Virus record (IMG/VR): IMGVR_UViG_3300002835_000103
Coordinates: 1 to 64,000 of that record
DNA: 64,000 nt
Source of the DNA: a virus
Reading direction: 5' to 3' (one strand)
Positions 24,611 through 50,189 of this stretch are shown piece by piece. Below the pieces are notes generated by a model. It worked only from the letters and a program-made list of their open reading frames with translations. It ran no database searches and was not told where the DNA came from. The translations under genes were made by a program, and so were the position numbers. How positions within the stretch are numbered: the stretch's first letter is position 1; each line of letters begins with the position of its first letter.

Positions 24611-25762
24611 TTAATTTGTAATAGATAGCATATTTGCTCCGGCTGCAACACTGTACCATGTTGTAGACGAACCAACTTGTACTGGACTGGATCTATGTGT
24701 AGTATTGCCTAAACCAAGTGAGCCGGATCCATTTGCGCCCCATGTCCATAATGTACCATCGGTTTTGATTGCAGCACTAGTAAGATTACCAGCGGAAACC
24801 ATTGACCAATTTGTTAGTGCGCCAACCTGTACTGGGCTAGATTTGCTGATAGTAGTGCCGTCACCTAAATTGCCGTAAGTAGTATTATATCCCCATGACC
24901 ATAACGTTCCATCTGTTTTTATTGCTAAGGTATAACCGTCACCACCATCAATACTTGACCACGTAGTCAATGCGCCAATTTGTACTGGACTGGATCTATA
25001 TATAGTAGTGCCGTCACCTACATTGCCGTAATAATTGTAGCCCCAGCTCCATAAGGTGCCGTCTGTTTTAATGGCCGCGCTGGTGGACGACGCCGCGGCT
25101 ATCTTTGACCAAGTTGTTAGTGCACCAATTTGTTTTGGACTTGAATAATCTGTGGTATTACCCAAGCCTAATCGGCCAGAGCCACCACTACCCCAAGCCC
25201 ACATGGTACCATCTGTTTTGACGGCTATGGTATGCAGAGAGCCGCCAGCAATTTTTGACCATGTGGTTAAAGCACCAATCTGTACTGGACTTGATCTGAA
25301 TGCGGTATCACCTAACCCCAATTGCCCCATGCCAGTGCCATAATTTCCGCCCCATGACCACAAGGTACCATCTGTTTTAATGGCCAGGCTGTGACTATAG
25401 CCTGCAGCAATACTCAACCAAGTAGTTAAAGCACCAACTTGTACTGGGCTAGATACTCTACCAGATGGATATGTGCCAACTGGTTCGCCATTGCCCAATT
25501 GCCCAAATTGATTATATCCCCAGGTCCACAAGGTGCCATCAATTTTTGTTGCCATGCTGTACTGACCGCCTGTGGCAATCTGTGACCATGTGGTTAGTGC
25601 GCCAATCTGCACAGGACTAGATCTATCAATAGTAGATCCGTCACCAACTGCGCCGTAGGCATTATACCCCCATCCCTGTAGGTAATATACTGGCGGAATT
25701 GGAAAGACTGCTTGCGCGCTAACGTCGCCGACGAAATTTAAGCCTGAAAAAGTAAATGCCAT
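24611..25762 (-). CDS. RCC1-type seven-bladed propeller adhesin
   Basis: 383 residues: tag MAFTFSGLNFVGDVSAQ, linker AVFPIPP, seven RCC1 repeats. Three blades use the variant DGTTI(Y/S/D) instead of GNTT, and one blade carries an inserted GEPVGTYPSGRV loop, so tips differ between paralogues. It is the last (3'-most) gene of the 24.6-34.7 kb array. The leader is A-rich (AAAAGAACAACAAA) with no Shine-Dalgarno sequence. Confidence 0.85.
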   Translation of the reverse strand: MAFTFSGLNFVGDVSAQAVFPIPPVYYLQGWGYNAYGAVGDGSTIDRSSPVQIGALTTWSQIATGGQYSMATKIDGTLWTWGYNQFGQLGNGEPVGTYPSGRVSSPVQVGALTTWLSIAAGYSHSLAIKTDGTLWSWGGNYGTGMGQLGLGDTAFRSSPVQIGALTTWSKIAGGSLHTIAVKTDGTMWAWGSGGSGRLGLGNTTDYSSPKQIGALTTWSKIAAASSTSAAIKTDGTLWSWGYNYYGNVGDGTTIYRSSPVQIGALTTWSSIDGGDGYTLAIKTDGTLWSWGYNTTYGNLGDGTTISKSSPVQVGALTNWSMVSAGNLTSAAIKTDGTLWTWGANGSGSLGLGNTTHRSSPVQVGSSTTWYSVAAGANMLSITN

Positions 25763-25774
25763 TTTGTTGTTCTT

Positions 25775-26896
25775 TTAATTTGAGATTGCCAGGATCACGT
25801 AGTCTGTGTTCGTAACACTAATCCACGTAGTGCGTGCGCCAATTTGTTTAGGGCTTGAATATGCTGTAGTATTACCTAAACCCAATGTGCTATTGCCACC
25901 GGTACCCCATGACCACAATGTACCATCTGTTTTAATTGCGTGGGCGGTGTAGCCTTTACTACTAACACTTGACCAAGTAGTCAATGCACCAATTTGAACC
26001 GGACTAGATCTACTTGTAGTATCTCCTACCCCAAGGGCACCTTGATAATTTCTTCCCCACGACCACATTGTGCCATCGGTTTTAATGGCATATCCGCTTT
26101 CTGAACCTGCATTAATCGTTGACCAATTAGTTAGAGCACCAATTTGTTTTGGGCTTGAATATGCTGTAGTATTTCCTAAACCAAGTCTACCATGTGCATT
26201 TGTTCCCCACGACCACATGGTACCATCTGTTTTAATGGCCATGCTGTAGTATAATGCAGAAACATTTAACCAAGCTGTTAGAGCACCAACTTGTACTGGA
26301 CTAGATCTGTTATTAGTATCTCCTAAGCCCAACTGACCGTTAGTATTGCTTCCCCACGACCATAAGGTACCATCTGTTTTAACGGCCAGGCAATGATATG
26401 TTCCACCAGAAATATTTAGCCAATTGGTTAATGCACCAATCTGTACTGGACTGGATCTGTTATTAGTATCTCCTAAGCCTAATGATCCTTGACCATTTCC
26501 GCCCCAAGCCCACAATGCGCCGTTTGTGTTAATAGCAACACCACCATTAAATCTAGCGGATATCTTTGCCCATGTAGTTAGAGCACCAATTTGTTTAGGA
26601 CTAGAATACCGTGTGGTATTACCTAGGCCTAAATGTCCCGAATCGTTGTAACCCCATGTCCACATGGTACCATCGGTTTTAAGGGCTAGACTGTAAAGAT
26701 ATTGCCCAGCAGTACTACTCCAATTAGTCAATGCCCCAACCTGATTCGGACTAGATCTACTTGCGGTATCGCCTAGCCCAAGTTGCCCAAAGTTCTGGTA
26801 TCCCCATGACCATAAGTAAAATTCTGGAGGAGCGGGATGAGTAGTTGTGAGGTTAAGACCGGTTATTCCGCTTATGCCAGATAAAGTAAATGCCAT
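25775..26896 (-). CDS. RCC1-type seven-bladed propeller adhesin
   Basis: 373 residues: tag MAFTLSGISGITGLNLTT, linker HPAPPE, seven repeats. Two blades share GDTNNRSSPVQ and two others GNTTAYSSPKQIGA, showing exchange of blade segments. One blade has NTNGALWAWG in place of KTDGT. The leader is AAAAGAAAAACAAAATGG. Confidence 0.85.
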   Translation of the reverse strand: MAFTLSGISGITGLNLTTTHPAPPEFYLWSWGYQNFGQLGLGDTASRSSPNQVGALTNWSSTAGQYLYSLALKTDGTMWTWGYNDSGHLGLGNTTRYSSPKQIGALTTWAKISARFNGGVAINTNGALWAWGGNGQGSLGLGDTNNRSSPVQIGALTNWLNISGGTYHCLAVKTDGTLWSWGSNTNGQLGLGDTNNRSSPVQVGALTAWLNVSALYYSMAIKTDGTMWSWGTNAHGRLGLGNTTAYSSPKQIGALTNWSTINAGSESGYAIKTDGTMWSWGRNYQGALGVGDTTSRSSPVQIGALTTWSSVSSKGYTAHAIKTDGTLWSWGTGGNSTLGLGNTTAYSSPKQIGARTTWISVTNTDYVILAISN

Positions 26897-26912
26897 TTTG
26901 TTTTTCTTTTAA

Positions 26913-28061
26913 TTAATAGTAACCGATTGCTGCAGAGTGATAAAAAGTACCGGCAGCGGCATTTGTCCAAGCTGATAATGAACCTACTTGTGTTGGACTA
27001 GATCTATCTAAAGTATCTCCTAGCCCAAGATTACCTGTACTTTGATATGTATCACCCCAAGACCATAGTGTGCCATCTGTTTTAATTGCCAACGTAAAAT
27101 ACGAGCCCGAGTAAACGTTTCCCCAATTAGTTAATGCACCAACCTGTACTGGACTAGATCTATCTGTAGTATTGCCTAACCCTAATCGTCCATCTGCACC
27201 GTAACCCCATGACCACATGGTACCATCTGTTTTAATGGCCATATGATAATAATTACCAGCAGAAACCTTAGACCAATTTGTAAGGGAACCTACCTGTACT
27301 GGGCTAGATCTATGTGTAGTATCACCTTGGCCGAGTTCTCCATAAAAATTACTTCCAGTTGTCCATAATGTACCGTCTGTTTTAATTGCGGCCAGATGAT
27401 ATGGACCTGCAGAAACTGTTGACCAAGTTGTTAAAGCACCAATCTGTACTGGACTAGATCTATCTGTAGTATTACCTTGACCTAATTGTCCGTAGGTATT
27501 TTTACCCCATCCCCACATTGTACCATTGGTTTTAATTGCATGAACGGTTCTATAATTGCCAGCTGAAACTTTTAACCAATTTGTAAGGGAACCTACCTGT
27601 ACTGGGCTGTCTCTATTTGATTCATCTCCTAATCCCAATGCACCTTTATAATTATTTCCCCATGCCCACAATGTTCCGTCTGTTTTAACTGCGGCAGTGT
27701 GATAACCTCCACCGTCAAAACTATCAGCATTGCCGGCCCAATTAGTTAATGCACCAACTTGTTTTGGACTTGAATAAGTTGTAGTATTACCCAGCCCCAA
27801 TATTCCAGATACACCGTATCCCCATGTCCATAATGTACCATCGGTTTTAACCGATATTTTATGATAACCTCCGGCAGCAACTCTTAACCAATTAGACAAT
27901 GCGCCAATTTGCACTGGGGTAGATTTATCAATTGTAGTTCCGTCACCTAGTGCACCATATCCACCATCACCCCAACTCCAAAGGTAATACCCCGGAGGAG
28001 TGGGTTGAATTATGTTAATTGTTACCCCTGCGTATCCGCCGCCTGAAAATGTAACTGCCAT
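26913..28061 (-). CDS. RCC1-type seven-bladed propeller adhesin
   Basis: 382 residues: tag MAVTFSGGGYAGVTINII, linker QPTPPG, seven repeats. Blade 5 has WTTGSN instead of WSWG, and the last repeat ends in SAAIGYY rather than MAISN. One blade is extended (GNADSFDGGGYHTAA). Confidence 0.85.
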   Translation of the reverse strand: MAVTFSGGGYAGVTINIIQPTPPGYYLWSWGDGGYGALGDGTTIDKSTPVQIGALSNWLRVAAGGYHKISVKTDGTLWTWGYGVSGILGLGNTTTYSSPKQVGALTNWAGNADSFDGGGYHTAAVKTDGTLWAWGNNYKGALGLGDESNRDSPVQVGSLTNWLKVSAGNYRTVHAIKTNGTMWGWGKNTYGQLGQGNTTDRSSPVQIGALTTWSTVSAGPYHLAAIKTDGTLWTTGSNFYGELGQGDTTHRSSPVQVGSLTNWSKVSAGNYYHMAIKTDGTMWSWGYGADGRLGLGNTTDRSSPVQVGALTNWGNVYSGSYFTLAIKTDGTLWSWGDTYQSTGNLGLGDTLDRSSPTQVGSLSAWTNAAAGTFYHSAAIGYY

Positions 28062-28088
28062 TTTTTGTTCTTTTCTTTTTTTTAATTT

Positions 28089-29216
28089 TTAGTTACTGAT
28101 GGCCATGCTGTGAAAATAACCTGCGGCAACACTTGACCAATTAGTTAAAGCCCCAATTTGCACCGGACTAGATCTATCTGTAGTATTTCCTAAACCCAAT
28201 TGACCCGTATTATTAAAACCCCATGACCACATGGTACCGTCTGTTTTGATGGATAGGTTGTGATATTCACCGGCATCAACACTTGACCAAGTGGTTAACG
28301 CGCCAATTTGTGTTGGACTAGATCTATTTGCGGTATCGCCTAAACCCAATCGCCCCGCATAATTTCTACCCCATACCCACATGGTACCATCTGTTTTAAT
28401 GGCCAAGTTATGATATTGACCAGCAGCAATATTTAACCAATTAGTTAAAGATCCAACTTGTTTTGGACTAGAATAGTATGTCGTATTACCTACCCCCAAT
28501 TGCCCAAAATTATTTTTACCCCATAACCACATGGTTCCATCTGTTTTAATTGCCGATGTGTGCTCATAACCTGCAGCAATATTTAACCAATTAGTTAAAG
28601 ATCCAACTTGTTTTGGACTAGAATAGTATGTCGTATTACCTAGGCCTAATTGCCCTTTACCCCCAATACCCCATACCCACATGGTACCATCTGTTTTAAT
28701 GGCCAAGTTATGATATTGACCAGCAACAATATTTGACCATGTGTTTAATGCACCAACCTGTACTGGACTAGATACAGATGTAGTATTACCTAGGCCTAAT
28801 CGCCCGGCGGACCCGTTACCCCATACCCACATAGTACCATCTGTTTTGAGCGCCAGATTGTGTTGACCACCTGCACCAATTTTTGCCCAGGTAGTTAATG
28901 CACCAATTTGTACTGGATTTGAATAATTTGTGGTATTACCTAAACCTAATTGACCAAGGCTACCCGATCCCCAAGACCATAGTGTACCATCTGTTTTAAT
29001 GGCCAAGTTATGATATTGACCAGCAGCAATATTTAACCAATTAGTTAAAGCCCCAACTTGTACAGGACTAGATCTATCGGTAGTATTGCCTAATCCTAAT
29101 TGACCTGAATTATTTCTGCCCCATGACCACAGGTATTGCGGAGGAGGTGGCGGCGGAGCTGGGCATACTAGATTAAACCCGCCCCTTGTTGAAAAACCTG
29201 AAAAGGTAAATGCCAT
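28089..29216 (-). CDS. RCC1-type propeller adhesin with freshly duplicated blades
   Basis: 375 residues from MAFTFSGFSTRGGFNLV; the linker is PAPPPPPPQ. An in-frame ATG at 29270 would overlap the upstream gene and lacks the tag, so I take 29216. Neighbouring blades carry the same segment SSPKQVGSLTNWLNIAAG twice. At DNA level 28423-28492 and 28573-28642 are identical over 70 bases. Most loops use WVWG or WLWG instead of WSWG, unlike the other paralogues. Confidence 0.85.
   Translation of the reverse strand: MAFTFSGFSTRGGFNLVCPAPPPPPPQYLWSWGRNNSGQLGLGNTTDRSSPVQVGALTNWLNIAAGQYHNLAIKTDGTLWSWGSGSLGQLGLGNTTNYSNPVQIGALTTWAKIGAGGQHNLALKTDGTMWVWGNGSAGRLGLGNTTSVSSPVQVGALNTWSNIVAGQYHNLAIKTDGTMWVWGIGGKGQLGLGNTTYYSSPKQVGSLTNWLNIAAGYEHTSAIKTDGTMWLWGKNNFGQLGVGNTTYYSSPKQVGSLTNWLNIAAGQYHNLAIKTDGTMWVWGRNYAGRLGLGDTANRSSPTQIGALTTWSSVDAGEYHNLSIKTDGTMWSWGFNNTGQLGLGNTTDRSSPVQIGALTNWSSVAAGYFHSMAISN
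28423..28642 (-). repeat. Perfect 70-base direct repeat, one blade apart
   Basis: 28423-28492 equals 28573-28642 (offset 150). Another shared block, 28368-28425, recurs at 28668-28725 (offset 300), and a related block at 28384-28450 recurs at 28984 (offset 600). All offsets are whole blades. Confidence 0.85.
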
Positions 29217-29229
29217 TTTGTTTTTCTTT

Positions 29230-30360
29230 TTATCCGATAGCCAGGCTGAAAGAACCACCTGCAGAAACATTTGCCCAATTTGTTAATGATCCAATCTGCA
29301 CTGGACTAGATCTATTTGTGATATCGCCTATACCCAATCGACCAGATTGATTATCGCCCCATGACCACATGGTACCATCTGTTTTAATGGCCAGATTGTG
29401 TTCAACACCCCCTGAAATATTTAACCAAGTAGTTAATGCACCAACTTGTACTGGACTAGATCTATTTGTAGTATCTCCTAACCCCAATGAGCCTACTGCA
29501 TTTCTTCCCCAAGACCATAAAGTACCATCTGTTTTTACAGCCAGGCCGTGATAATACCCAGCGGAAACACTTTGCCAAGTAGTTAATGCGCCAATCTGTA
29601 CAGGACTAGATCTATTTGTAGTATCGCCCAATCCAAGTTCGCCGTAACCATTAGCGCCCCATGTCCATAAAGTTCCATCTGTTTTAGTTGCGAGGGCACC
29701 AAATCTAATATTAGTAATATTTGACCAAGTGGTTAAAGCGCCAATTTGTTGTGGGCTAGATGTATTTGTAGTATTACCCAATCCCAATTGCCCGTTAGAC
29801 CCTTGTCCCCATGACCACATAGTACCATTGGTTTTAATTGCTGCAGCACCGTTTCCAGCAAGTGAAATTATAATTGCCCAATCAGTTAAGGAACCTACTT
29901 GTACTGGACTAGAATATGATGTAGTATTGCCCAATCCTAACTTGTAACCATAATTACCACCCCACGCCCATAAGGTACCATTGGTTTTTATAGCAAACAT
30001 ATTAGACGCTTTCCCTGTACTAATATTTGCCCAAGTAGTTAAAGCTCCAATCTGTTTTGGAGAAGAATAATATGTAGTATTACCTAAGCCTAATTGACCT
30101 GCATAATTTCTGCCCCAAGACCACATTGTGCCATCTGTTTTTAGAGCCATTGCCCAACCTTCTGCTGCAGCAATACTTGACCAAGTGGTCAATGCACCAA
30201 TCTGTTTTGGAGAAGAATAATCTGTAGTATTACCTAACCCCAATCGACCACTAATACCTTGACCCCATGACCAAAGATAATATATCGGAGGTGGTGGTGG
30301 TTGAGTAGTGGTAAATGATATACCCGAATAATTGCCGATACCTGAAATAGTAAATGCCAT
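29230..30360 (-). CDS. RCC1-type seven-bladed propeller adhesin
   Basis: 376 residues: tag MAFTISGIGNYSGISFTT, linker QPPPPP, seven repeats. Two blades have KTNGT in place of KTDGT, and one (TDWAIIISLAGNG) is diverged. It ends SLAIG, shorter than its relatives. Leader AAAAAGAGAACAAAATGG. Confidence 0.85.
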   Translation of the reverse strand: MAFTISGIGNYSGISFTTTQPPPPPIYYLWSWGQGISGRLGLGNTTDYSSPKQIGALTTWSSIAAAEGWAMALKTDGTMWSWGRNYAGQLGLGNTTYYSSPKQIGALTTWANISTGKASNMFAIKTNGTLWAWGGNYGYKLGLGNTTSYSSPVQVGSLTDWAIIISLAGNGAAAIKTNGTMWSWGQGSNGQLGLGNTTNTSSPQQIGALTTWSNITNIRFGALATKTDGTLWTWGANGYGELGLGDTTNRSSPVQIGALTTWQSVSAGYYHGLAVKTDGTLWSWGRNAVGSLGLGDTTNRSSPVQVGALTTWLNISGGVEHNLAIKTDGTMWSWGDNQSGRLGIGDITNRSSPVQIGSLTNWANVSAGGSFSLAIG

Positions 30361-30375
30361 TTTGTTCTCTTTTTA

Positions 30376-31509
30376 TTAATAGCTAATAGCCAAAGTGAAC
30401 GTACCAACTGCATCAATCTTTGACCAATTAGTTGATGAACCAATCTGTGTTGGGCTTGATCTATTTGTGGTATCACCTAACCCCAATCGACCGGATCCAT
30501 TTCCACCCCAAGCCCACATGGTACCATCTGTTTTAATGGCCACGCTGTGACTTCTACCGGCATCAATACTTGACCAATTGGTTAAAGCACCAACTTGAAC
30601 TGGGCTTATATATTGAGTGGTACCACCTAAACCTAACATTCCTATATAATTGCGACCCCATCCCCACAAGGTGCCATTATTTTTCAGGGCCACGCTGTGA
30701 GCATATTTACCCCCAGCAACACTTAACCAATTGGTTAGACCCCCTACCTGTTTTGGGCTAGAATAATATGTATAATTATTTAATCCTAACTGACCAAAAG
30801 CATTCATCCCCCATGACCATAACGTACCATCTGTTTTGACGGCCATACTGGCCCTATACCCTCCAGCAATATTTAACCAAGTAGTTAATGAACCAATTTG
30901 TACTGGACTAGATCTATTTGAGGTATCGCCTAGCCCCAGTGAACCGTGTTGATTAACTCCCCATGCCCACATGGTACCATCTGTTTTAATGGCCATGGTA
31001 TGCTGACCACCTGCATTAATCTTTGACCAAGTAGTTAATGCACCAATTTGTACTGGACTAGATATACTTGTAGTATTGCCTAACCCCAATCGACCGCTAT
31101 TATTATAACCCCATGACCACATGGTACCATCTGTTTTAATGGCTATGTTGTAGAAGAAACTTCCTTCAATTGTTGCCCAATTGGTTCCTGCGCCAATCTG
31201 TACTGGACTAGATCTATCTGTAAGATCCCCCAAACCTAACTGCCCCGTATCATTGTAACCCCATGACCATAAGGTACCATCTGTTTTGAGGGCCATGCCG
31301 TGATTATACCCGGCAGCAATATTCAACCAAGAGCCTAGCGAACCAATTTGTTTTGGACTTGAATAACTTGTAGTATTACCTAAACCTAGTCGACCGTCGC
31401 TTCCACTACCCCACGACCATAGATAAGATGTTGGTTCGGGAGGTGGAGGTGGAGTATACACCATGTCGAAACTACCTTTTGTGGTTATACCCGAAAAAAT
31501 TAATGGCAT
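30376..31509 (-). CDS. RCC1-type seven-bladed propeller adhesin
   Basis: 377 residues: tag MPLIFSGITTKGSFDMV, linker PPPPPEPT, seven repeats. One blade reads KNNGTLWGWG with GMLGLGGTTQYIS, a diverged tip. The leader is poly-A-rich with no ribosome-binding motif. Confidence 0.85.
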   Translation of the reverse strand: MPLIFSGITTKGSFDMVYTPPPPPEPTSYLWSWGSGSDGRLGLGNTTSYSSPKQIGSLGSWLNIAAGYNHGMALKTDGTLWSWGYNDTGQLGLGDLTDRSSPVQIGAGTNWATIEGSFFYNIAIKTDGTMWSWGYNNSGRLGLGNTTSISSPVQIGALTTWSKINAGGQHTMAIKTDGTMWAWGVNQHGSLGLGDTSNRSSPVQIGSLTTWLNIAGGYRASMAVKTDGTLWSWGMNAFGQLGLNNYTYYSSPKQVGGLTNWLSVAGGKYAHSVALKNNGTLWGWGRNYIGMLGLGGTTQYISPVQVGALTNWSSIDAGRSHSVAIKTDGTMWAWGGNGSGRLGLGDTTNRSSPTQIGSSTNWSKIDAVGTFTLAISY

Positions 31510-31527
31510 TTTTTTTTATTCTTTTTA

Positions 31528-32634
31528 TTAATTACTGATGGCATGGCTAAAATAACTACCTGCAGCAACACTTAACCATTTTGTTAATGCGCCAATCTGT
31601 ACTGGACTAGATCTATTGGTAGTAGTGCTGTCGCCTACTTGACCATTTCCGTTACCGCCATGTCCCCATAATGTGCCATCTGTTTTAATAGCCAATACAT
31701 GTCGAGGACCTGCAGTAACATTTGACCAAGTTGTTAAAGCGCCAATTTGTACTGGATTAGATCTGTCTGTAGCATCACCTAAACCCAATTGTCCTTCATC
31801 ATTGTTACCCCATGACCACATGGTACCATCTGTTTTGATTGCAACACTGCCAGCAGAATGAACAGCAACCTTTGACCAAGTAGTTAAGGCACCGATCTGT
31901 GTTGGGTTAACTGCGTTAGAGGTATTACCTAATCCCAATCTGTTATTTTGACCGCTACCCCATGTCCACAAGGTACCATTTGTTTTAACTGCCACGGCGT
32001 GATACCACGAAATTGCAAATGTTGACCAATTGGTATCTGTACCAACTTGTACTGGACTAGAACCGGCTCTACCTTGCGTTGCTTCGCCTCCACCAGAGCC
32101 TATCGACCACAACGTACCATCAGTTTTGCCGGCAAGGGTAAAGTACCTACCTGCAGAAACATTCAACCAAGTTGTTAGTGCACCTACTTGTTTTGGACTT
32201 GAATATGGTGAAGTATTACCTACACCTAATTGCCCGTAGCTATTACCACCCCATGCCCACATGGTACCATCCGTTTTAACTGCCATGGTGTGATTTCTAC
32301 CTCCAGAAACTCGTGACCAAGTTGTTAGTGCACCTACTTGTTTGGGACTTGAATAGTTTGTAGTATTACCTACACCCAATTGACCAACATTGTTTATACC
32401 CCAAGACCATAGACTACCATCGGCTTTGATAGCCATGCCATGATAACCTCCTGCGGCAACACTTAACCAAGTAGTTAAAGCACCAATTTGTACTGGACTA
32501 GATCTATTTGTGGTATCGCCTAACCCCAATCGACCAGAGCTATTACCGCCCCATGACCATAAGTAAAATTCTGGTGGTGGTGGAGGAGGCTGAATATTGA
32601 CTCCGCCTAATATAGTTATTCCGATTAGATCCAT
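31528..32634 (-). CDS. RCC1-type propeller adhesin with a degenerate blade
   Basis: 368 residues: tag MDLIGITILGGVNIQ, linker PPPPPP, seven repeats. Blade 4 is degenerate (WSIGSGGGEATQGRAGSS), lacking the QLGLGN core, and the last blade has WGHGGNGNGQVGDST. It is the shortest of the RCC1 set. Leader ATAATAAGAAAACAAA. Confidence 0.85.
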   Translation of the reverse strand: MDLIGITILGGVNIQPPPPPPEFYLWSWGGNSSGRLGLGDTTNRSSPVQIGALTTWLSVAAGGYHGMAIKADGSLWSWGINNVGQLGVGNTTNYSSPKQVGALTTWSRVSGGRNHTMAVKTDGTMWAWGGNSYGQLGVGNTSPYSSPKQVGALTTWLNVSAGRYFTLAGKTDGTLWSIGSGGGEATQGRAGSSPVQVGTDTNWSTFAISWYHAVAVKTNGTLWTWGSGQNNRLGLGNTSNAVNPTQIGALTTWSKVAVHSAGSVAIKTDGTMWSWGNNDEGQLGLGDATDRSNPVQIGALTTWSNVTAGPRHVLAIKTDGTLWGHGGNGNGQVGDSTTTNRSSPVQIGALTKWLSVAAGSYFSHAISN

Positions 32635-32663
32635 TTTGTTTTCTTATTATCTTTTACAATTTA

Positions 32664-33542
32664 TTAAAATGTTATTGAACCAGAACTGGTCCATTTATAT
32701 ATTCTATATCCGCCGGATACTATTACGTTGGGAGATCCTGTTGTATTTGATGCGGCCGGATTAATATCTTCGTAACGAAGTATAACTATACCGGAACCAC
32801 CAGCTCCGGAACCGCTACCGTTGCCTACTTGATTACCGCCGCCGCCACCGCCGGTATTTACATTGCCGGCAGCATTACCGGCACCGCCGCCGTATCCTAT
32901 ACTAGCTGTGATATCGGATCCGCCACCAACGCCACCGGATCCGCCTCCGGCATATCCAACACTTGTACCGGATATAGAGGAGTTTATACCTGCTCCACCA
33001 AAACCGCCGGCGGTGGTGGTGGCTGCTGCTCCAACTGCGCCAGCGCCACCACCACCGCCACCGCCACCAGTTTCTTGGCCACCACCAGCTCCGCCATTAT
33101 AGCCTTGTCTTGGTGGTCCAGCAGTTCCAGAACCGCCGCCACTTGCTAGTCTACCACCTTGACCACCACCCGATCCACCGTTATTTATAGAACCTATGCT
33201 GCCGCCGGCGGCATTACCTGCACCACCGCCGATTGCTGTTGCAGTTCCGCTTATTGATGAATTTGCCCCAACACCGCCATTTAGTCCGTTGTTATTTCCT
33301 GTAGCAGTGCCGCCGGCACCTACTGTAATAGTAAGTGTAGAGCTACTAACTAACAAGGCTGTTCCTGTTAATAATCCGCCGGCGCCACCACCGCCACCAC
33401 CGCCCCGCTGGTTATCAGCTGATCCACCACCTGCACCGCCCGCGACTACAAGGTATTCTATAGTAGGAGTCACCGGCGGTGTTGGAATATGCACCGCAGT
33501 CAATGCTCCGTTTATTCTTACGCCTGAAATTGTTAGTGCCAT
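32664..33542 (-). CDS. Glycine-rich adhesin sharing its tag with an RCC1 gene
   Basis: 292 residues. The tag MALTISGVRINGALTAVHIP is nearly the same as that of the RCC1 gene at 33559 (MALTISGFTITGNLNAVHIP), yet the distal domain is glycine-rich (VVAGGAGGGSADN, many GGGG runs). The C-terminus NVIVSGGYRIYKWTSSGSIT is shared with the glycine-rich genes at 48467 and 50188. It lies inside the RCC1 array. Confidence 0.75.
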   Translation of the reverse strand: MALTISGVRINGALTAVHIPTPPVTPTIEYLVVAGGAGGGSADNQRGGGGGGGAGGLLTGTALLVSSSTLTITVGAGGTATGNNNGLNGGVGANSSISGTATAIGGGAGNAAGGSIGSINNGGSGGGQGGRLASGGGSGTAGPPRQGYNGGAGGGQETGGGGGGGGAGAVGAAATTTAGGFGGAGINSSISGTSVGYAGGGSGGVGGGSDITASIGYGGGAGNAAGNVNTGGGGGGNQVGNGSGSGAGGSGIVILRYEDINPAASNTTGSPNVIVSGGYRIYKWTSSGSITF

Positions 33543-33558
33543 TTTGTTCTTTTAATTT

Positions 33559-34701
33559 TTAGCTACTGATGGCTAAAGACCATCGTTGACCTGCGGCAAC
33601 ACTTGACCAATTAGTCAATGAACCCACTTGAATCGGACTAACTACCGGTGTAGTAGTAGTGCCATCACCTACTTCACCATATGAATTCCTGCCCCAAGAC
33701 CACAAGGTACTGTTAGTTTTAATTGCCAAATTATGATATCTACCCGCGGAAATCTTTAACCAATTGGTTAACGCGCCAATTTGGGTTGGACTAGATCTAC
33801 GTTCTTGATCACCTAATCCCAATCTACCGGCGCCAGTGTTACTATTATCACCCCATGACCACATGGTGCCATCTGTTTTAATGGCCACGCAGTGACTACT
33901 ACCTCCAGCAATACTTGCCCAAGTAGTACCTGCACCAACTTGTTTTGGACTAGAATAATCTGTAGTATTGCCTAGTCCCAACATGCCATAAGCATTTCTA
34001 CCCCAAGTCCATATGGTACCATCTGTTTTAACTGCAATACCGTGATAAGAACCCCCAGAAACTCTTAACCAATTGGTTAATGCGCCAATTTGTACTGGGC
34101 TAGATACATTTGTAACATTACCTAAGCCTAGTGCACCAAAAGTATCATTTCTACCCCAAGACCATATGGTACCATCTGTTTTAATTGCAGCGGTCCAACT
34201 TCCCGAACCTGCAGAAACACTTGCCCAAGTGGTGCCTGCACCAATTTGTACTGGACTAGATACACTTGTGGTATTGCCTAAACCCAATTGACCATAATTA
34301 TTTTTACCCCATGACCACAAGGTGCCATCTGTTTTAACGGCCATGCTGTGATACCTACCTGCACTAACATTTAACCAAGTAGTTAATGCACCAACCTGTA
34401 CTGGACTAGATGTATTTGTAGTATTGCCAAGGCCTAATTGACCATCGCCATTGAGACCCCATGCCCACATGGTACCATCTGTTTTAGTCGATAAACTGTG
34501 ATAGCCCGCCGCAATATTTAACCAAGTAGTTAATGCGCCGACTTGTGTTGGACTAGCTACATTTGTAGTATTGCCTAACCCTAATTGACCGGCATTGTTT
34601 CTGCCAAAACTCCATAGGTAATATATTGGTGGAGGAGGAGGTGGAATATGCACCGCATTAAGATTACCGGTTATAGTAAAACCGGAGATGGTCAGGGCCA
34701 T
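33559..34701 (-). CDS. RCC1-type seven-bladed propeller adhesin
   Basis: 380 residues: tag MALTISGFTITGNLNAVH, linker IPPPPPP, seven repeats. One blade is extended (GDNSNTGAGRLGLGDQERR), and the final blade has a DGTTTTPVVSPI loop. This is the first gene of the main array. Unlike the others it has a fair ribosome-binding site (AGAGGTG, 5 bases before the ATG). Confidence 0.85.
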   Translation of the reverse strand: MALTISGFTITGNLNAVHIPPPPPPIYYLWSFGRNNAGQLGLGNTTNVASPTQVGALTTWLNIAAGYHSLSTKTDGTMWAWGLNGDGQLGLGNTTNTSSPVQVGALTTWLNVSAGRYHSMAVKTDGTLWSWGKNNYGQLGLGNTTSVSSPVQIGAGTTWASVSAGSGSWTAAIKTDGTIWSWGRNDTFGALGLGNVTNVSSPVQIGALTNWLRVSGGSYHGIAVKTDGTIWTWGRNAYGMLGLGNTTDYSSPKQVGAGTTWASIAGGSSHCVAIKTDGTMWSWGDNSNTGAGRLGLGDQERRSSPTQIGALTNWLKISAGRYHNLAIKTNSTLWSWGRNSYGEVGDGTTTTPVVSPIQVGSLTNWSSVAAGQRWSLAISS

Positions 34702-34721
34702 ATTACACCTCTTCTTTTAAA

Positions 34722-35108
34722 TTAAACTAACGCGTCTAATTCGTCGTGTGTTGTTGCGGCGGTAACTGCTGCAACTTTAGAGTCTGCTGTAGCTTGTGCT
34801 GCAGCAATTGCTTCTGCGGTATGAGTTCCAGGTGTCATCTCATTTTGCATATTCATGCGAGCAACCGCAAAATTAGCATTAGAAATCATGCTGTTTTTAC
34901 GATCTTCAACTGTGATATCTACTGCATCCCAGATGATTTGAACTGGATCTACGTTTAGATCATAGCGGTGAGCCGCAAACTGTTGACGATGTGCAACTAG
35001 TTCAGCACGAACTTCTACTGCATTTCTCCAGCCTTCTTGGCCTTCGGGTGGTGCAGAGTCCCAAACTTGTTTAACTTCGCCGTCTAATACTTGTACAAAT
35101 AATGCCAT
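34722..35108 (-). CDS. Fibre accessory or assembly-like protein
   Basis: 128 residues. FVQVLDGEVKQVWDSAPPEG and then GWRNAVEV resemble the short N-terminal domain of phage fibre accessory proteins, followed by a helical stretch (DRKNSMISNANFAVARMNMQ) and an Ala-rich C-terminus ending in HDELDALV. It is the first gene of the array after a perfect late box. AGGAG lies 7 bases before the ATG. Confidence 0.55.
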   Translation of the reverse strand: MALFVQVLDGEVKQVWDSAPPEGQEGWRNAVEVRAELVAHRQQFAAHRYDLNVDPVQIIWDAVDITVEDRKNSMISNANFAVARMNMQNEMTPGTHTAEAIAAAQATADSKVAAVTAATTHDELDALV

Positions 35109-35142
35109 TTTTAATCTCCTAATGTTAAATGGGTGTCTGTTA

Positions 35143-35150
35143 TATTTATA
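35143..35150 (-). promoter_or_regulatory. T4-like late promoter box
   Basis: TATAAATA on the minus strand, 35 bases before the ATG at 35108 and heading the RCC1 array. Confidence 0.75.
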
Positions 35151-35175
35151 ATATAAGATATTCCAAATTTTCGGT

Positions 35176-35802
35176 TTAACCCGGTTGTAGGAATATAAGG
35201 TGTGTCAATCTACTGTTGTTAACGTCTGTTCCAAAATGTTGGCCCATATGGTGCCATAACCAGGGCCTGAACAGCACTGCCCGATTAAACTTAATGTCTA
35301 CATTCAATTCGGTTTTCCATAAATCAGTATTTATACCCTCAGTTTCAAAGAAATTTCGCATATCTTCAAATGTTTTTACTCCAATTGCGTCACTTTCGGT
35401 GTAATCTTTAGGGGCAATAGTCATACCGGTTCTTTTATGGGAAACAATTTTTGTCCCGGCATCTCTACCTTCATAATGCTCGGGCAGACTTAAATAAACT
35501 ACTCCTGCCCATGTTTGCCCGGGGGTTGGATCAAAATGCACAATTTGTTTTGCAATGTCTTTTTCTCTAGTATGTCTGAAATATCCGTTGGCTGAAGGCT
35601 TTGCAGGCTTTACGGTTTCGCCAGTTGCTTTACATAACATTTTTGTAATGGTTGTATCCCAATACGATCTCGTGGTGTTTAGCCCTGGATAGTTGGGTGT
35701 CAGGCCTTCTGGCTCATACTCCGCGTTCAATGCCATATCCCGCATCATATAAGGATCGGAATAAAAATCATCTATAACTATTACTTTTTTATCAAATTCC
35801 AT
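35176..35802 (-). CDS. Cupin or 2-oxoglutarate-oxygenase-like protein
   Basis: 208 residues from MEFDKKVIVIDDFYSDPYMM; the ATG at 35802 overlaps the upstream stop by 11 bases. The end (VLFRPWLWHHMGQHFG, then SRLTHLIFLQPG) with an earlier HFDPTPGQTWAGVVYLS fits the double-stranded beta-helix of Fe(II)/2-oxoglutarate oxygenases or the related DUF6445 family. A HxD-like pair is plausible (HFDP) with a distal His (HH) and Arg. Probably hydroxylates a protein or small molecule; the target is unknown. Confidence 0.6.
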   Translation of the reverse strand: MEFDKKVIVIDDFYSDPYMMRDMALNAEYEPEGLTPNYPGLNTTRSYWDTTITKMLCKATGETVKPAKPSANGYFRHTREKDIAKQIVHFDPTPGQTWAGVVYLSLPEHYEGRDAGTKIVSHKRTGMTIAPKDYTESDAIGVKTFEDMRNFFETEGINTDLWKTELNVDIKFNRAVLFRPWLWHHMGQHFGTDVNNSRLTHLIFLQPG

Positions 35803-36574
35803 TTTTAATATCAAACTGTGAAAAATATTTACATAAACTCTCACCAAGTACTTCTTGTGCAGAATCACTGGTCTTTTCTAATTTACCTCTGATTGTATGC
35901 AGATCTTTCAATCCCCATGCAGTATCTTTGGCTTCACCGCAAGTATTTGTGATACTATCGAACTTGTGGTCATATCTATTTATTTCCAAGAAATCGTATA
36001 TCTTATTAATTGTGTCTTGAGGTGTTTGTACTAGATCATCATACTGCACAAAATATAAATTTTCTTTATAATTTTTCATGCCTATCTGTAAACTTTCCCA
36101 CGGATCTCTAATATAGGATTCCCACAGTTCCATTGCTCTTGTGTTTGTATTTATCGGCTTGCGCTTTTTTTTCAATGCTGCATCAATAAAATTGTTTGGA
36201 TCTTTATTAAGTAGCTTGATGAAACTTGTGACAACTTCCGCAACCGGTCTGTTGGTACAAATGACCTTGGGGTTTTCAGAAATGTGTAGCTTTGCTGGCA
36301 TAACATTCCTTGCCCAAGCTCTGTGCTTGTCTATAATATGAGGCTTCTTTATGCTCTCATAATATGCTTTGGGTAACGCAGTGTATATGGATGCAGATTG
36401 ATTTTCAACATCAAAGGTATATTGCTGAGTAACTCTATTGAGTGCCTCATTTTGCAGGCATAACAAATCCAATAAAGGACTTGTGGGGGAAACATATACC
36501 TCTGGATTTTGATTTAAAATTGATCCAAGCAATGTTGAACCTGATCTAGGTAAGCCGCTTAAAAAGTATATCAT
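35792..36574 (-). CDS. Sulfotransferase
   Basis: 260 residues. The 5'-phosphosulfate loop FLSGLPRSGSTLLGS (4-18) and the 3'-phosphate element VICTNRPVAEVVTSF match PAPS-dependent sulfotransferases. It would move sulfate from PAPS to a hydroxyl or amine of an unknown acceptor. It overlaps the larger sulfotransferase-glycosyltransferase gene by 4 bases and the oxygenase-like gene by 11, forming one unit. Confidence 0.8.
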   Translation of the reverse strand: MIYFLSGLPRSGSTLLGSILNQNPEVYVSPTSPLLDLLCLQNEALNRVTQQYTFDVENQSASIYTALPKAYYESIKKPHIIDKHRAWARNVMPAKLHISENPKVICTNRPVAEVVTSFIKLLNKDPNNFIDAALKKKRKPINTNTRAMELWESYIRDPWESLQIGMKNYKENLYFVQYDDLVQTPQDTINKIYDFLEINRYDHKFDSITNTCGEAKDTAWGLKDLHTIRGKLEKTSDSAQEVLGESLCKYFSQFDIKNGI

Positions 36575-38328
36575 TGTATATTCATTCCCAAAAGTTTTTC
36601 TCTAACTTTCACAAAAGGTGCTTCCCAATCTCCGTATTTTTCTTGGCGCATCAAGGTAAAGCAATCATAATAGGGAGTACGATCTCCATCTAATGCATAT
36701 AAGAAGTATGGCATAATTGGAGTAACAACCCAGGTATCAACACCCATAGCACCAGCAAGGTGACTGACAGATGTGCATGAACTAATTACCAGATCACATT
36801 CGGCAACTGCTTTACGAGTATCTTCCCATGTATTTAATGGAACTTTTCTAACCCAGAATGGACATTCATCTTCGCCCTCATCTCTTTGCAAGCTAATAAA
36901 CTCTGCATTGATACCTCGAAGTGCCTCAAACATTAATTCTGATGGGAACTTCTTATGATGCTCATGCTCAAATTGTGGGTTGCCTTGCCATCTCAATCCA
37001 ATACGCATCTTTTTGCCTTTGATTGAGAATGGCTTTCTAATGTAAGGTGCGCCGGATATGTCGTCAAGTTCTAATCCCAACGGAACAGCTGCAGACATAC
37101 CTGCTACCCAGAAATCATGATATACTCCATAGATTGATTCGTGTTGCACAACTGCGGATACACCCTCAACATCTATAAACAAAGATGCCAACATACCAGT
37201 ACAACATACCATGACTTTACATCCTCGATCTGCAATAACTTTTGCATAACGAACTTGGTGTATTTGATCTCCCAATCCACCTTCAAGGTATAGCATTACG
37301 ATACCTTTTGTTTTTCCATCCCACATAGGCATAGGTGTATCTGGTCTACTGTTTCCAAACACACCAACAATCCGACCACGATCCATTAGGCTATAACCTT
37401 TTTGGATTTCACCTTGACGCAAATAATACCAACCTCTGTTATAAGCTGCTCTATGGTTAAGTGGTTCAGCTGCTTCTATTTTTTGAGAAAGTCTCCAACC
37501 TTCATCGAAGTCTCCTCGGGTACTTGCTTCGAGTTGAAAATCAAGATCGTGTTTTTCTTGTACTGTTCTTGGAGTTTTTAACCAGAACTCACCCTGACAG
37601 AATGTGGGATAATGATGCTTTAATAATTCTCTCGGGTCTTGATTATGCTGACGCTGTAGTACAGGTTTAATATCATGCATACCTGCATACCCGTGAATGT
37701 TCTCATCGTCTTCTGATACTGTAGAACCATCAATATTCCCAAAGTCATAATTAAAATCTGGTAGACCCAAGAACTCATGAATACGTTTTAGTTCTTTCTT
37801 GGGATCTTTAACTAAATCCTCATACTCAACAAACAGGAAATTTTCTGGGGCAAATTTATACCCTTCTTGCAATGAGATATAAGCTGCCTTCAAGTGATCC
37901 ATTAACTGACCTGAATAGATAAGTTGATCTAAGTCTGTGGGTTTTGCCACACGAACAAAAGATGCAGCACAATCGGGCACGGAACGAACCGTTGCAATAA
38001 CTTTAGGTCTTCTTTCAAGAACCGCAGACATGGCTGCCATAATTTGTGGAATAGGCCATCCGCGAGATTTATCTATAACAACGGGCTTGTCTACATCTGA
38101 GTAAAACGCATCAATAGTCCCTCGCATTGTTGCCGCCAATTTAGAACGATCCGCATCGTTCTCATTTAATAACCCAGCACTATGCCAAGTATTTGCCAAG
38201 CCATCTAAGGCATGGACCAACCCAGATGTTGTACTAACATGGGTCATTGGATTTTGATTTAAAATGGCTGCCAGAACTGTAGAACCAGAGCGGGGAATGC
38301 CTGCAAGAAAATGTAGTTGTTTATTCAT
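36571..38328 (-). CDS. Sulfotransferase-TPR-glycosyltransferase fusion
   Basis: 585 residues. Residues 1-245 are a PAPS sulfotransferase (FLAGIPRSGSTVLAA; KVIATVRSVPDCAASF). About 250-310 is TPR-like (AAYNRGWYYLRQGEIQKGYS). From 320 on is a GT9/heptosyltransferase-like domain (MLYLEGGLGDQIHQVRYA; LRWQGNPQFEHE; LVISSCTSVSHLAGAMG). One chain may thus transfer both a sugar and sulfate, or bind a common acceptor. It has its own sigma70 promoter (38361-38389) and an AGGTGA site. Confidence 0.8.
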   Translation of the reverse strand: MNKQLHFLAGIPRSGSTVLAAILNQNPMTHVSTTSGLVHALDGLANTWHSAGLLNENDADRSKLAATMRGTIDAFYSDVDKPVVIDKSRGWPIPQIMAAMSAVLERRPKVIATVRSVPDCAASFVRVAKPTDLDQLIYSGQLMDHLKAAYISLQEGYKFAPENFLFVEYEDLVKDPKKELKRIHEFLGLPDFNYDFGNIDGSTVSEDDENIHGYAGMHDIKPVLQRQHNQDPRELLKHHYPTFCQGEFWLKTPRTVQEKHDLDFQLEASTRGDFDEGWRLSQKIEAAEPLNHRAAYNRGWYYLRQGEIQKGYSLMDRGRIVGVFGNSRPDTPMPMWDGKTKGIVMLYLEGGLGDQIHQVRYAKVIADRGCKVMVCCTGMLASLFIDVEGVSAVVQHESIYGVYHDFWVAGMSAAVPLGLELDDISGAPYIRKPFSIKGKKMRIGLRWQGNPQFEHEHHKKFPSELMFEALRGINAEFISLQRDEGEDECPFWVRKVPLNTWEDTRKAVAECDLVISSCTSVSHLAGAMGVDTWVVTPIMPYFLYALDGDRTPYYDCFTLMRQEKYGDWEAPFVKVREKLLGMNIQ

Positions 38329-38360
38329 AAAATCACCTAATTATTGTGGTATATACTAAT

Positions 38361-38389
38361 ATTTTATCGGATTTAAGATATTTTGTCAA
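38361..38389 (-). promoter_or_regulatory. sigma70-type promoter of the sulfotransferase unit
   Basis: TTGACA (38384-38389), a 17-bp spacer and TAAAAT (38361-38366) on the minus strand. The -35 box overlaps the stop codon of the GT2 gene. It lies 33 bases upstream of the ATG at 38328. Confidence 0.75.
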
Positions 38390-39704: not shown

Positions 39705-39719
39705 AATATTTCCAATAAT

Positions 39720-40211
39720 TTACTTTTCTATTAATCTAAAAATTTGCACAATTCCACTATCAAATGAATGGAATAACCAAGGCCTGAAAAATACAGCTTG
39801 CCCCGGTTTCAACTGATGGTTAACCATTAGATCCCATTCAAATAAATTTCTATAATTGTGTTGGTATCCGTCTAATGCAGTTAATGCGCCGGATTTGTGT
39901 TCAAAGATGTTAAATGTAGATTGATCTATTGCGACTACAAGTAACCATTCCTTTAAAGAATCAAATCCTTCGAAGTGTATCAGTAATTCGGGGAATCGAA
40001 ACACGCCCGACTTTTCTCTATCAACTGTAACATCTTTACCAAGTACGGTTGAGAATAGTTTATCTGCGTCTGCAGGGATGTGATTGAAATTTAATATTTC
40101 TTTACCAAACTCAGTTGATTGAAAGTTTAAACCTCTAACCACATTATGTAAATTGGTTGCGCTTTCTACATTATAAAATTCATCAACCGTCATTGTTTTA
40201 ATTAATGCCAT
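39720..40211 (-). CDS. Cupin or 2-oxoglutarate-oxygenase-like protein
   Basis: 163 residues. PGQAVFFRPWLFHSFDSGIV near the end matches the FRPWLxH segment of the gene at 35176, and STFNIFEHKSG is a plausible earlier metal site. It looks like a small double-stranded beta-helix protein. A variant late box lies 35 bases before the ATG, so this gene may be late although it precedes the modification genes. Confidence 0.55.
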   Translation of the reverse strand: MALIKTMTVDEFYNVESATNLHNVVRGLNFQSTEFGKEILNFNHIPADADKLFSTVLGKDVTVDREKSGVFRFPELLIHFEGFDSLKEWLLVVAIDQSTFNIFEHKSGALTALDGYQHNYRNLFEWDLMVNHQLKPGQAVFFRPWLFHSFDSGIVQIFRLIEK

Positions 40212-40245
40212 ACTAAAATATTCCCGTTATAATTTAATTATATAT

Positions 40246-40253
40246 TATTTATC
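40246..40253 (-). promoter_or_regulatory. Late promoter-like box, variant
   Basis: GATAAATA on the minus strand, 35 bases before the ATG at 40211. Confidence 0.45.
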
Positions 40254-41445
40254 ATCCTAATCCTATACTATGGCTGTATCCAGTAGCTACAGTAAGCCAA
40301 TTTGTTAAGGATCCGACCTGGTTTGGCTCACTTCTACCAAAAGTATCTCCAAGACCAAGTTTACCGTTAAAGTTATCTCCCCAAGACCACAATGTACCGT
40401 CGGTTTTAGTTATTATGCACTGAGTGTTCAAAGCTCCAGTCCCAGCATTTGACCAAGTTGTTAATGCACCAACTTGTTTTGGACTAGAATAACTTGTGGT
40501 ATTACCTAAACCCAATTGTCCAGATGATCCTCTACCCCATGTCCACAATGTACCATCAGTTTTAATTGCCGCGCAGCTATTATACATCGCACGAATTTTT
40601 GACCAATTTGTTAATGCCCCAATTTGTACTGGGCTTGAAAAGTATGTAATATTACTTAGACCTAATTGACCATAACCATTATTTCCCCAGCTCCACATAG
40701 TACCATCAGTTTTAATAGCAATCGAAAAATTGGATTGTCCCCCGCAACTACCACGTGCCCAAGTTGTTAATGCACCAATCTGTACTGGACTAGATCTATG
40801 CGCAGTATCGCCTAGTCCTAATTTGCCATGATGGTTCGCGCCCCATGACCACATAGTACCATCTGTTTTAATGGCTATGGAGTGATCAACACCGGAGGAA
40901 ACACTTGACCAATTTGTTAATGCCCCAATTTGTACTGGACTAGATATATTTGTAGTATTACCTAAACCAAGCTGACCTAAGTTATTTTTACCCCACGACC
41001 AAATAGTACCATCTGTTTTGATGGCCATGCTGCAACCGAAGCCTGAACTAACACGAGACCAAGTGGTTAATGCACCAATCTGCACTGGACTAGATCTATT
41101 TGTAGTATCACCTAAGCCCAATACGCCTTGATAATTTTCACCCCATGCCCATAAGGTGCCGTCGGTTTTAATTGCTTGACTATTTGAGTATCCTGCACCT
41201 ACAACAGACCAATTCAAAGACCCAACTTGTTTTGGACTTGAATAATTTGTCGTATTGCCTATACCTATTTGACCACTGCTACCGCTCCCCCATGAATATA
41301 TTTTATATACTACCGGAGGCGCAGGCCAAATGCCTGCTCGTTTTGCCTGCATTTGATCTGCAGGATTAAAAATTCCAGAAGCAGATGAAGTATTAACTAC
41401 TGTGGGTGTTGCAGATATTAATCCGCCGTAATACTTTTTAACCAT
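40252..41445 (-). CDS. RCC1-type propeller adhesin with YYGG tag
   Basis: 397 residues. A different 36-residue N-terminal tag (KKYYGGLISATPTVVNTSSA plus GIFNP and MQAKRAG) replaces the FSG tag of the main array; the same tag occurs in the gene at 41464 and is known from structural proteins of T4-like aquatic phages. Then seven RCC1 repeats, the last ending in SHSIGLG. It may dock elsewhere on the virion than the FSG-tagged adhesins. Confidence 0.85.
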   Translation of the reverse strand: MVKKYYGGLISATPTVVNTSSASGIFNPADQMQAKRAGIWPAPPVVYKIYSWGSGSSGQIGIGNTTNYSSPKQVGSLNWSVVGAGYSNSQAIKTDGTLWAWGENYQGVLGLGDTTNRSSPVQIGALTTWSRVSSGFGCSMAIKTDGTIWSWGKNNLGQLGLGNTTNISSPVQIGALTNWSSVSSGVDHSIAIKTDGTMWSWGANHHGKLGLGDTAHRSSPVQIGALTTWARGSCGGQSNFSIAIKTDGTMWSWGNNGYGQLGLSNITYFSSPVQIGALTNWSKIRAMYNSCAAIKTDGTLWTWGRGSSGQLGLGNTTSYSSPKQVGALTTWSNAGTGALNTQCIITKTDGTLWSWGDNFNGKLGLGDTFGRSEPNQVGSLTNWLTVATGYSHSIGLG

Positions 41446-41460
41446 ATTAATTTATATTGT

Positions 41461-41468
41461 TATTTATT
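41461..41468 (-). promoter_or_regulatory. Late promoter-like box, variant
   Basis: AATAAATA on the minus strand, 16 bases before the ATG at 41445, the shortest spacing in the set. Confidence 0.35.
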
Positions 41469-42675
41469 GCTTAGTAGCCAACACGAATCGATGGGAATTT
41501 CCTGCAACAACATCTATCCAGGTAGTCAACGATCCAACTTGATTTGGACTAGTATTATTAAAAATATAGCCTTGTGCCAGGACTCCACCCTGATCACTTC
41601 CCCATGCCCATAATGTACCATTTGTTTTAATTGCGGTGGTGAAATAATTACCTGCAGAAACTTTTAACCAATTAGTTAAAGCTCCAACTTGGTTCCAAAC
41701 GTATGTACTCGAAGTTCCGTTATTTCCCAGTTCTCCATATGAATTCTGGCCAATAGTCCATAATGTACCATCAGTTTTAGTTGCTGCATTGTGGTTGCGG
41801 TTAGCAGCAACCGACGCCCAATTTGTGCCTGAGCCAACTTGTGTTGGCTCAGATCTTTTTACAGTATCCCCAAATCCTAATCTGCCCTGAAAACCACTTC
41901 CATTAGTCCCCCAGGCATACAACGTACCATCTGTTTTAATTGCAAAACTTGTATTATAACCTGCAGAAATCTTTAGCCAAGTGGTTAGAGCACCAATCTG
42001 TTTTGGACTCGAATATGCTGTAGTATTACCTAAACCCAATTGACCGTCATTAGCAGATCCCCAACTCCACAATGTACCATCGGTTTTAACTGCCAAACAA
42101 TGAAATTGAACAACTGAAGTAGTTTTCCAATTGGTTAAAGCGCCAATTTGTTTAGGAGAAGAATAATAAGTACTATTACCTAGACCCAGTACTCCGGCGT
42201 TATTAGCACCACAACTCCACATCGTGCCATCGGTTTTAACTGCAATAAAGCATTGTAAACCTGCGCTAACACTTTCCCAATTAGCTAATGCACCTACTTG
42301 CGTTGGACTAGAAACTGGTGTGGTATTACCAAGACCCAAACGACCATACCCATTTCTTCCCCAGGCCCAAAATGTTCCGTCAGTTTTAATAGAATATCCT
42401 GAGTGTCCTCCGGCTGCTATAGTTTTCCAATTGGTTAAAGATCCAACTTGTTTAGGTGAGGAATAAAGGTTAGTATTACCTAAGCCAAGGTTACCATATG
42501 AATTTTGCCCCCAAGACCAAAGATTGTATGGGATAGGAGGTGCTGCAGGCGTAGGCCAATTGCCTGCTCGTTTTGCCTGCATTTGTTGAGTAGGATTGAA
42601 TATTCCAGAAGCGGATGAAGTATTAACTACCGTTTTGGTGGCAGATATTAGTCCTCCATAATACCTTCTTTTCAT
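41464..42675 (-). CDS. RCC1-type propeller adhesin with YYGG tag
   Basis: 403 residues. The tag MKRRYYGGLISATKTVVNTS, linker AAPPIP, then seven RCC1 repeats that are the most diverged of the set (WSCGAN, WTIGQN, LYAWGT; loop TSSTYVWNQ). It follows the small beta protein at 42677 by 1 base and a giant fibre gene before that, suggesting that these three assemble together. Confidence 0.85.
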   Translation of the reverse strand: MKRRYYGGLISATKTVVNTSSASGIFNPTQQMQAKRAGNWPTPAAPPIPYNLWSWGQNSYGNLGLGNTNLYSSPKQVGSLTNWKTIAAGGHSGYSIKTDGTFWAWGRNGYGRLGLGNTTPVSSPTQVGALANWESVSAGLQCFIAVKTDGTMWSCGANNAGVLGLGNSTYYSSPKQIGALTNWKTTSVVQFHCLAVKTDGTLWSWGSANDGQLGLGNTTAYSSPKQIGALTTWLKISAGYNTSFAIKTDGTLYAWGTNGSGFQGRLGFGDTVKRSEPTQVGSGTNWASVAANRNHNAATKTDGTLWTIGQNSYGELGNNGTSSTYVWNQVGALTNWLKVSAGNYFTTAIKTNGTLWAWGSDQGGVLAQGYIFNNTSPNQVGSLTTWIDVVAGNSHRFVLATKQ

Positions 42676-49788: not shown

Positions 49789-49797
49789 TTTTATCTC

Positions 49798-50157: not shown

Positions 50158-50181
50158 TTTAAAAAACTCCTATTTTCCTGT

Positions 50182-50189
50182 TATTTATC
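50182..50189 (-). promoter_or_regulatory. Late promoter-like box, variant
   Basis: GATAAATA on the minus strand, 25 bases before the ATG at 50157. Confidence 0.45.

Follow-up and report, generated by a model that had tools for sequence, protein, structure and literature searches.

Phages with several modular receptor-binding proteins (PMC11414711), glycine-rich tips and multi-copy RCC1 proteins, the latter annotated as DNA-condensation proteins, are already known. Here we describe an array of RCC1 and glycine-rich genes with short N-terminal tags on a 64,000-nucleotide stretch (the window, i.e., the whole stretch of DNA that was analyzed) of the 82,535-bp IMG/VR virus record IMGVR_UViG_3300002835_000103. 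The phages phAPEC6, 121Q and PBECO4 (Asteriusvirus, Rak2-like) resemble the window in that many RCC1 paralogues are located in one array with one short N-terminal tag each, that a glycine-rich tip is found on the RCC1 tag and that RCC1 proteins are present in the virions. In contrast to the window, the tag of these phages (MLPFxRMxKYGN) is unrelated and the propellers are far more diverged; the RCC1 proteins are annotated as DNA condensation, and the accessible part of the source does not describe the tag module.

The T-even gp38 adhesins (S16, T2, PP01) likewise have a glycine-rich receptor tip, hypervariable segments and an exchangeable N-terminal part (PMC12892980), but gp38 attaches by this N-terminal part, of which 113 residues were exchanged in a T2/PP01 chimera, whereas the window tag has about 20 residues and is common to several folds and paralogues. 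The tail fiber gp24 of the freshwater cyanophage Pam3 also carries a glycine-rich distal domain, described as part of the receptor-recognizing tip (PMC9608196), but docks by an N-terminal alpha-helical bundle and contains a TNF-like domain. Ackermannviridae with branched tailspikes share several receptor-binding proteins per phage, conserved N-termini and modular exchange with the window (PMC11414711). They have up to four large tailspikes, whereas the window encodes 17 small proteins with very short tags, in which about 25-50 residues precede the tip instead of a large N-terminal tailspike-interaction domain.

We consider it probable that the window encodes modular virion adhesins, presumably located on the tail, which combine a short docking tag with interchangeable receptor-binding tips. 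The tag is common to unrelated folds, the tip is replaced behind a constant tag, and variability is found at few propeller repeat positions. The lake phage looks T4-like; its T4-like markers are baseplate and tail-fiber protein families as well as genes for RNR, ThyX and primase, recognized from the sequence or by a PHROG match. Each protein would consist of an N-terminal tag of about 13-25 residues (longer in tag B), a proline-rich linker and one receptor-binding tip, which is either an RCC1 propeller with seven blades or a glycine-rich domain. The tag would serve as a docking peptide by which any tip could plug into a conserved virion site, and tips could be duplicated, diversified and replaced without altering the rest of the particle.

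N-terminal tags and distal folds in the window

The window contains 12 RCC1 open reading frames (ORFs) of 368-403 residues and five glycine-rich ORFs, all on the minus strand, exactly as counted in the original prediction, which had been made from the sequence before this analysis. The array exists, but in the interval stated in the same prediction, 24611-42675, only 10 RCC1 genes and one glycine-rich gene are located; the remaining ones lie at 8232-10277, 22372-23271 and 48467-52281. In detail, the interval harbors an unbroken run of eight RCC1 genes and one glycine-rich gene (24611-34701) and a second cluster (40252-42675), with sulfotransferase, methyltransferase and other genes in between.

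Tag A follows approximately the pattern M-x-h-x-h-S/N-G-x(3-6)-G-x-h with prolines next and is carried by about 14 genes. Ten of them are RCC1 genes, identified by the N-terminal sequence and mostly also by the repeats: 8232-9368 (MQITNVNFALGGMNVQTWD; seven repeats, PF00415 4.5e-87), 24611-25762 (MAFTFSG; seven repeats), 25775-26896 (MAFTLSG), 26913-28061 (MAVTFSG), 28089-29216 (MAFTFSG), 29230-30360 (MAFTISG), 30376-31509 (MPLIFSG), 31528-32634 (a short form, MDLIGITILGGVNIQPPPPPP), 33559-34701 (MALTISGFTITGNLNAVHIPPPPPP; seven repeats) and 51163-52281 (tag A-like, MITFQNLTFGGTFSYE). The start of the gene at 28089 is likely 29216 and not 29270, because MAFTFSG there follows the spacer common to the neighboring genes. 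The same tag is found on the glycine-rich genes at 9381-10277 (MRLSGLELLGGMQ; phrog_4474 4.6e-29), 32664-33542 (MALTISGVRINGALTAVHIP; PF21722 3.1e-20) and 50188-51147 (MAISFNGISIGSG; PF21722 3.1e-11), and the glycine-rich gene at 22372-23271 has an N-terminus that is tag-like by eye (MARFTLNNVSFSGRITSG) with a proline linker (PF12810 0.0011, under the curated cut-off). The 41-residue tag B (GLISATxTVVNTSSASGIFNPxxQMQAKRAGxWP) is located on the RCC1 genes at 40252-41445 (GLISATPTVVNTSSASGIFNPADQMQAKRAGIWP) and 41464-42675 (seven repeats), and a third kind of N-terminus (MTLRKYSAAKVSTTQKF...PPPPP) occurs on the glycine-rich gene at 48467-49459 alone (PF21722 1.8e-22). As in the Asteriusvirus type, several RCC1 genes share a short tag (tag A in 10 and tag B in two of the 12), but the sequences of the window tags are other than the Asteriusvirus one.

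According to the original prediction, most genes begin with (F/I)SG followed by PPPP. The pattern as such was confirmed, but (F/I/L)SG and literal PPPP are each present in nine of the 17 genes only; the rest of the tag-A set consists of looser variants (LELLGGM, NVNFALGG), and 40252, 41464 and 48467 differ. Similarly, the idea of a plug-in system agrees with a short module on several folds and with exchanged tips, but not with a single docking module, as at least three N-terminal types are found here and more in relatives. The nearly identical starts of 33559 and 32664, and with them the predicted sharing of a tag between two different distal folds, are real: ALTISG is common to both genes, and all six codons differ synonymously. 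Therefore the motif is conserved as protein and was not recently copied as DNA, which argues for selection at the peptide level. The spacers upstream of the tip genes are also alike.

A tag-A profile was built from the ten RCC1 tags alone after removal of the proline linker. As expected from the prediction, it recovered tags on the other fold: scores above 6 bits were obtained for 26% of 72 glycine-rich N-termini, compared with 1.3% of 1237 other genes and 0.8% of shuffles, and many of the matches among the other genes are LamG-type tips. The gene 32664 reached 14.4 bits with this profile, and the tag scores of 50188 and 9381 were 12.8 and 6.1 bits.

The seven repeats proposed for each RCC1 gene are supported by seven PF00415 stretches in each of the four proteins scanned; the whole record holds 83 RCC1 repeats. 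An AlphaFold2 model of 33559 (40 sequences) is a closed propeller of 28 strands in seven blades with a predicted local distance difference test (pLDDT) score of 93, whereas residues 1-26, which make up its tag and linker, lack secondary structure, with block means of 57-66 over the first 20 of them. The propeller is related to the solved structures of UVR8, HERC1/2, RPGR and RCC1, to the first three at template modeling (TM) scores of 0.81-0.87; a role in chromatin binding or as Ran guanine nucleotide exchange factor, as in RCC1 proper, is not expected in a phage. Variability is concentrated at repeat positions 11, 13-14, 16, 24-25 and 44-48, while the rest of the scaffold is almost invariant. 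Such a pattern of few variable positions on a fixed scaffold would fit a recognition surface. For the RCC1 genes of the window, recent gene conversion was rejected, as the longest common DNA block is 45 nt, without a trace of recent exchange.

Three of the glycine-rich proteins (32664, 48467 and 50188) belong to Gly_rich_2 (PF21722), and 9381 and 22372 have Pfam matches below cut-off only. The model of 32664 (pLDDT 84) matches the fold of the Bxb1 tail tip (9d93, 4.6e-4) and of the Pam3 fiber (7ypx, 1.4e-3) at TM scores of 0.35-0.49; S16 gp38, the type of which is marked by a polyglycine-II sandwich, is not among the fold matches listed. A profile of 20 relatives also finds Pam3 at 3.5e-4 (7ypx and 7yfw among the Pam3 fiber matches). 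In 32664 there are only about 25 residues ahead of the glycine-rich domain, in place of a gp38-type attachment domain of about 100 residues.

Tip replacement behind a constant tag

The contig L106, from a near-identical strain, matches the window with 96% identity at 10216-14173, and the match ends inside the gene at 9381. The upstream region is 99.5% identical, the adjoining gene for a SegE-type GIY-YIG endonuclease (10279-10680, minus strand; PF19835 1.4e-37) 96.5% and the tip gene 92% over its first 39 nt, with MRLSGLELLGGMQ in both. Past the tag a glycine-rich tip follows in the window and a LamG lectin in L106 (PF13385 1.9e-15), and the break in homology coincides with the end of the tag. 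Behind the stop codon of the LamG gene, L106 has retained TGRAFPSTNTANV and a stop, the last 12 codons of the glycine-rich gene of the window. At this locus, the tip in the contigs L115 and L110 is of a third type, with diverged versions of this scar behind it. The next gene, RCC1 8232, exists as four alleles (window, L106, L110 and L115) with 89-100% identity in the tags and 57-67% in the propellers, and its 3' flank shows 98% identity in a comparison of the window with L106. Together, these alignments support an exchange of tips behind a conserved tag. It seems feasible that the conserved tag and flanks allow an exchange of tips by homologous recombination, which would fit the junctions, and cleavage by the neighboring SegE-type endonuclease perhaps helps to drive the exchange. 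A small GIY-YIG-like ORF (2583-2885, by eye) is a second candidate homing endonuclease in the record.

The recurrence of the same tags on other tips in related genomes was also found. The RCC1-tag profile identified glycine-rich, LamG and other genes, and in dozens of related contigs tag-A genes downstream of a SegE homologue bear glycine-rich, RCC1, LamG, fn3 or unrecognized tips. Among 1263 proteins, 57 pairs combine the same tag (at least 9 of 15 N-terminal residues alike) with an unrelated distal part, compared with three after shuffling; as some glycine-rich/glycine-rich pairs and a few non-tip proteins are included, the number of true tip swaps is at most 57. Both RCC1 and glycine-rich tips occur on at least four unrelated tag families, namely tag A, tag B, a third one in L210 and L027 and a fourth one in L152 and L034/L040/L078. 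In two RCC1 genes (L250:3962 and L264:4794) the N-terminus fuses two tag types (KPGFNPL, then YSGLW or YKGIW, and GTWP/NTWP), which makes them possible tag chimeras.

In the public phage collection, tag B has a single match (tblastn) and tag C none. In the genome of the phage DSL-LC04 (OR003939), a glycine-rich protein and a LamG protein both carry tag B; unlike in the window, no RCC1 protein was noted in the 14-kb stretch examined. RCC1 and glycine-rich genes adjoin tail-fiber genes in the Clostridioides phage LIBA6276 as well. Escherichia phage Sharanji, a cultured phage with tagged RCC1 genes and with E. coli K-12 MG1655 given as host in its record, has 12 tag places.

Probable adhesins and competing explanations

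The original prediction held that the phage could display several tips at once or switch between them. Switching was not borne out: neither RVT_1, Resolvase and Phage_integrase nor inverted repeats that fit an invertible cassette were found in the 82.5-kb record, which may be incomplete, and the array is collinear with 99.97-99.99% identity in six other contigs over the parts covered. A diversity-generating retroelement and invertase-switched adhesins were rejected on the same domain search. Joint display is suggested by analogy to the tagged array of the coliphage phAPEC6. In this array 15 ORFs start with MLPFxRMxKYGN; they are mostly RCC1 proteins, with matches to RCC1-like models for the ones that were scanned. 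One glycine-rich ORF that bears the tag of the array (7325-8059) is unannotated and matches phrog_4474 at 9e-69, the same family as 9381 of the window; a direct BLAST comparison of the two is not significant (E 0.04), and the link is that both match phrog_4474. The deposited annotation shows a shorter hypothetical gene, gp004, at this position. Mass spectrometry of purified phAPEC6 virions detected gp003, 005, 006, 007, 009, 010, 549 and 551 (PMC7247149 Table 1), and six of these eight are named DNA condensation proteins. The tags of six of the eight were read directly in the fetched stretch, and we assume that gp549 and gp551 belong to the tag places at 348,957-351,446. The RCC1-like protein GAP32_001 was also detected in virions (PMC5259590).

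We assume that the tagged proteins of the window dock to the virion by the tag, probably at the tail, that the tips bind molecules of the host surface and that several tips are probably displayed together. More tentatively, and with somewhat less than even confidence, a docking tag some 20 residues long, together with a single acceptor on the virion, may allow the display of at least a dozen interchangeable adhesins of unrelated folds at once, a design that would have evolved in unrelated phage groups with tags that differ but with a preference for the same tips (RCC1, glycine-rich and LamG).

Several points weigh against the adhesin interpretation. The tag is structureless in single-chain models, and the tag-A profile is weak (area under the curve 0.73) with false positives such as a membrane protein starting with MIFAIILLL. 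A tree of 208 propellers supports the movement of tags among propeller lineages (59 changes of tag type versus 92 +/- 3 after shuffling; 8 of 28 well-supported small clades mix tags), but it is based on repeat proteins, whose topology can be distorted by recombination. The virion mass spectrometry stems from another lineage with a different tag, and gp006 and gp010 rest on one peptide each (PMC7247149). We found no paper in which an RCC1 propeller binds a phage receptor, and because the phage is uncultured, virion presence and receptor binding remain predictions.

It is much less probable that the proteins decorate the head or the tail shaft and that the same plug-in tags hold RCC1, glycine-rich and lectin domains on the particle surface, by which the phage would adhere loosely to cells or glycans. 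Six fibers hardly offer room for so many tips, the LamG tip of L106 also matches phrog_8510 of the class head and packaging, and the YYTNARV proteins match phrog_697 of the same class. On the other hand, the genes sit among tail-fiber genes, and the glycine-rich domains resemble known tail tips and fibers. The RCC1 proteins are not simply hairs either, as CBB has tail hairs but lacks a counterpart of the RCC1 protein of GAP32 (PMC5259590).

We regard it as improbable that the conserved 5' ends are DNA signals for recombination or translation initiation instead of protein tags. The homology break of L106 at the end of the tag is expected of a recombination entry point and the upstream spacers are likewise similar, but the six synonymous codons of ALTISG and the recurrence of tags at the amino-acid level in distant phages, in several unrelated families, argue against it. 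A DNA-condensing or DNA-organizing function of the RCC1 proteins inside the capsid is highly improbable in our view. It is suggested by the family name and by the DNA-ordering role that PMC7247149 proposes for the RCC1-like proteins of phAPEC6. However, the window proteins have only 15-27 lysine and arginine residues per about 380 residues, the genes sit among fiber genes, and tags shared with glycine-rich tips and LamG lectins are unexpected for a DNA organizer.

Neighboring genes and implications

Further minus-strand genes surround the tips. A protein with a weak fn3 match (2.9e-4) at 20899-22326 has a tag-A-like N-terminus (MSLQITSSNISITGKAQ; tag profile 8.4 bits), a large YYTNARV-repeat structural protein (43050-48413; phrog_697 structural protein, 1.4e-11) flanks the tips, and a tail-fiber protein (57711-60257; phrog_17885 tail fiber, 2.6e-83) lies in the same structural region. 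The small protein at 34722-35108 has no match in Pfam, and its family has no match in the public phage collection (tblastn, E 1e-3), but 57 of 63 homologues are located within 6 kb of an RCC1 gene; it is possibly an assembly factor candidate. An APS kinase-like gene and two sulfotransferase genes (23759-24550, 35792-36574 and 36571-38328) are located beside the tip clusters. Among the 63 homologues of 34722, besides the RCC1 genes, a sulfotransferase gene is found within 6 kb in 49 and an APS kinase-like gene in 44, and some of the contigs look podovirus-like. Tip and sulfation genes may possibly form a mobile cassette.

No description of RCC1 propellers as tips with micro-tags common to other folds was found in the papers searched, which is weak evidence, as subscription journals were mostly outside the search. 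In phages, RCC1 proteins usually carry the annotation DNA-condensation protein, and our evidence suggests that a class of interchangeable adhesins has been overlooked in lake phages, in coliphages and possibly in others. The sequence rule of tag, proline linker and tip finds candidate receptor-binding proteins in uncultured phages, and the docking peptide is small and testable. As there are many paralogues, the joint display of several receptor-binding proteins can therefore be asked directly.

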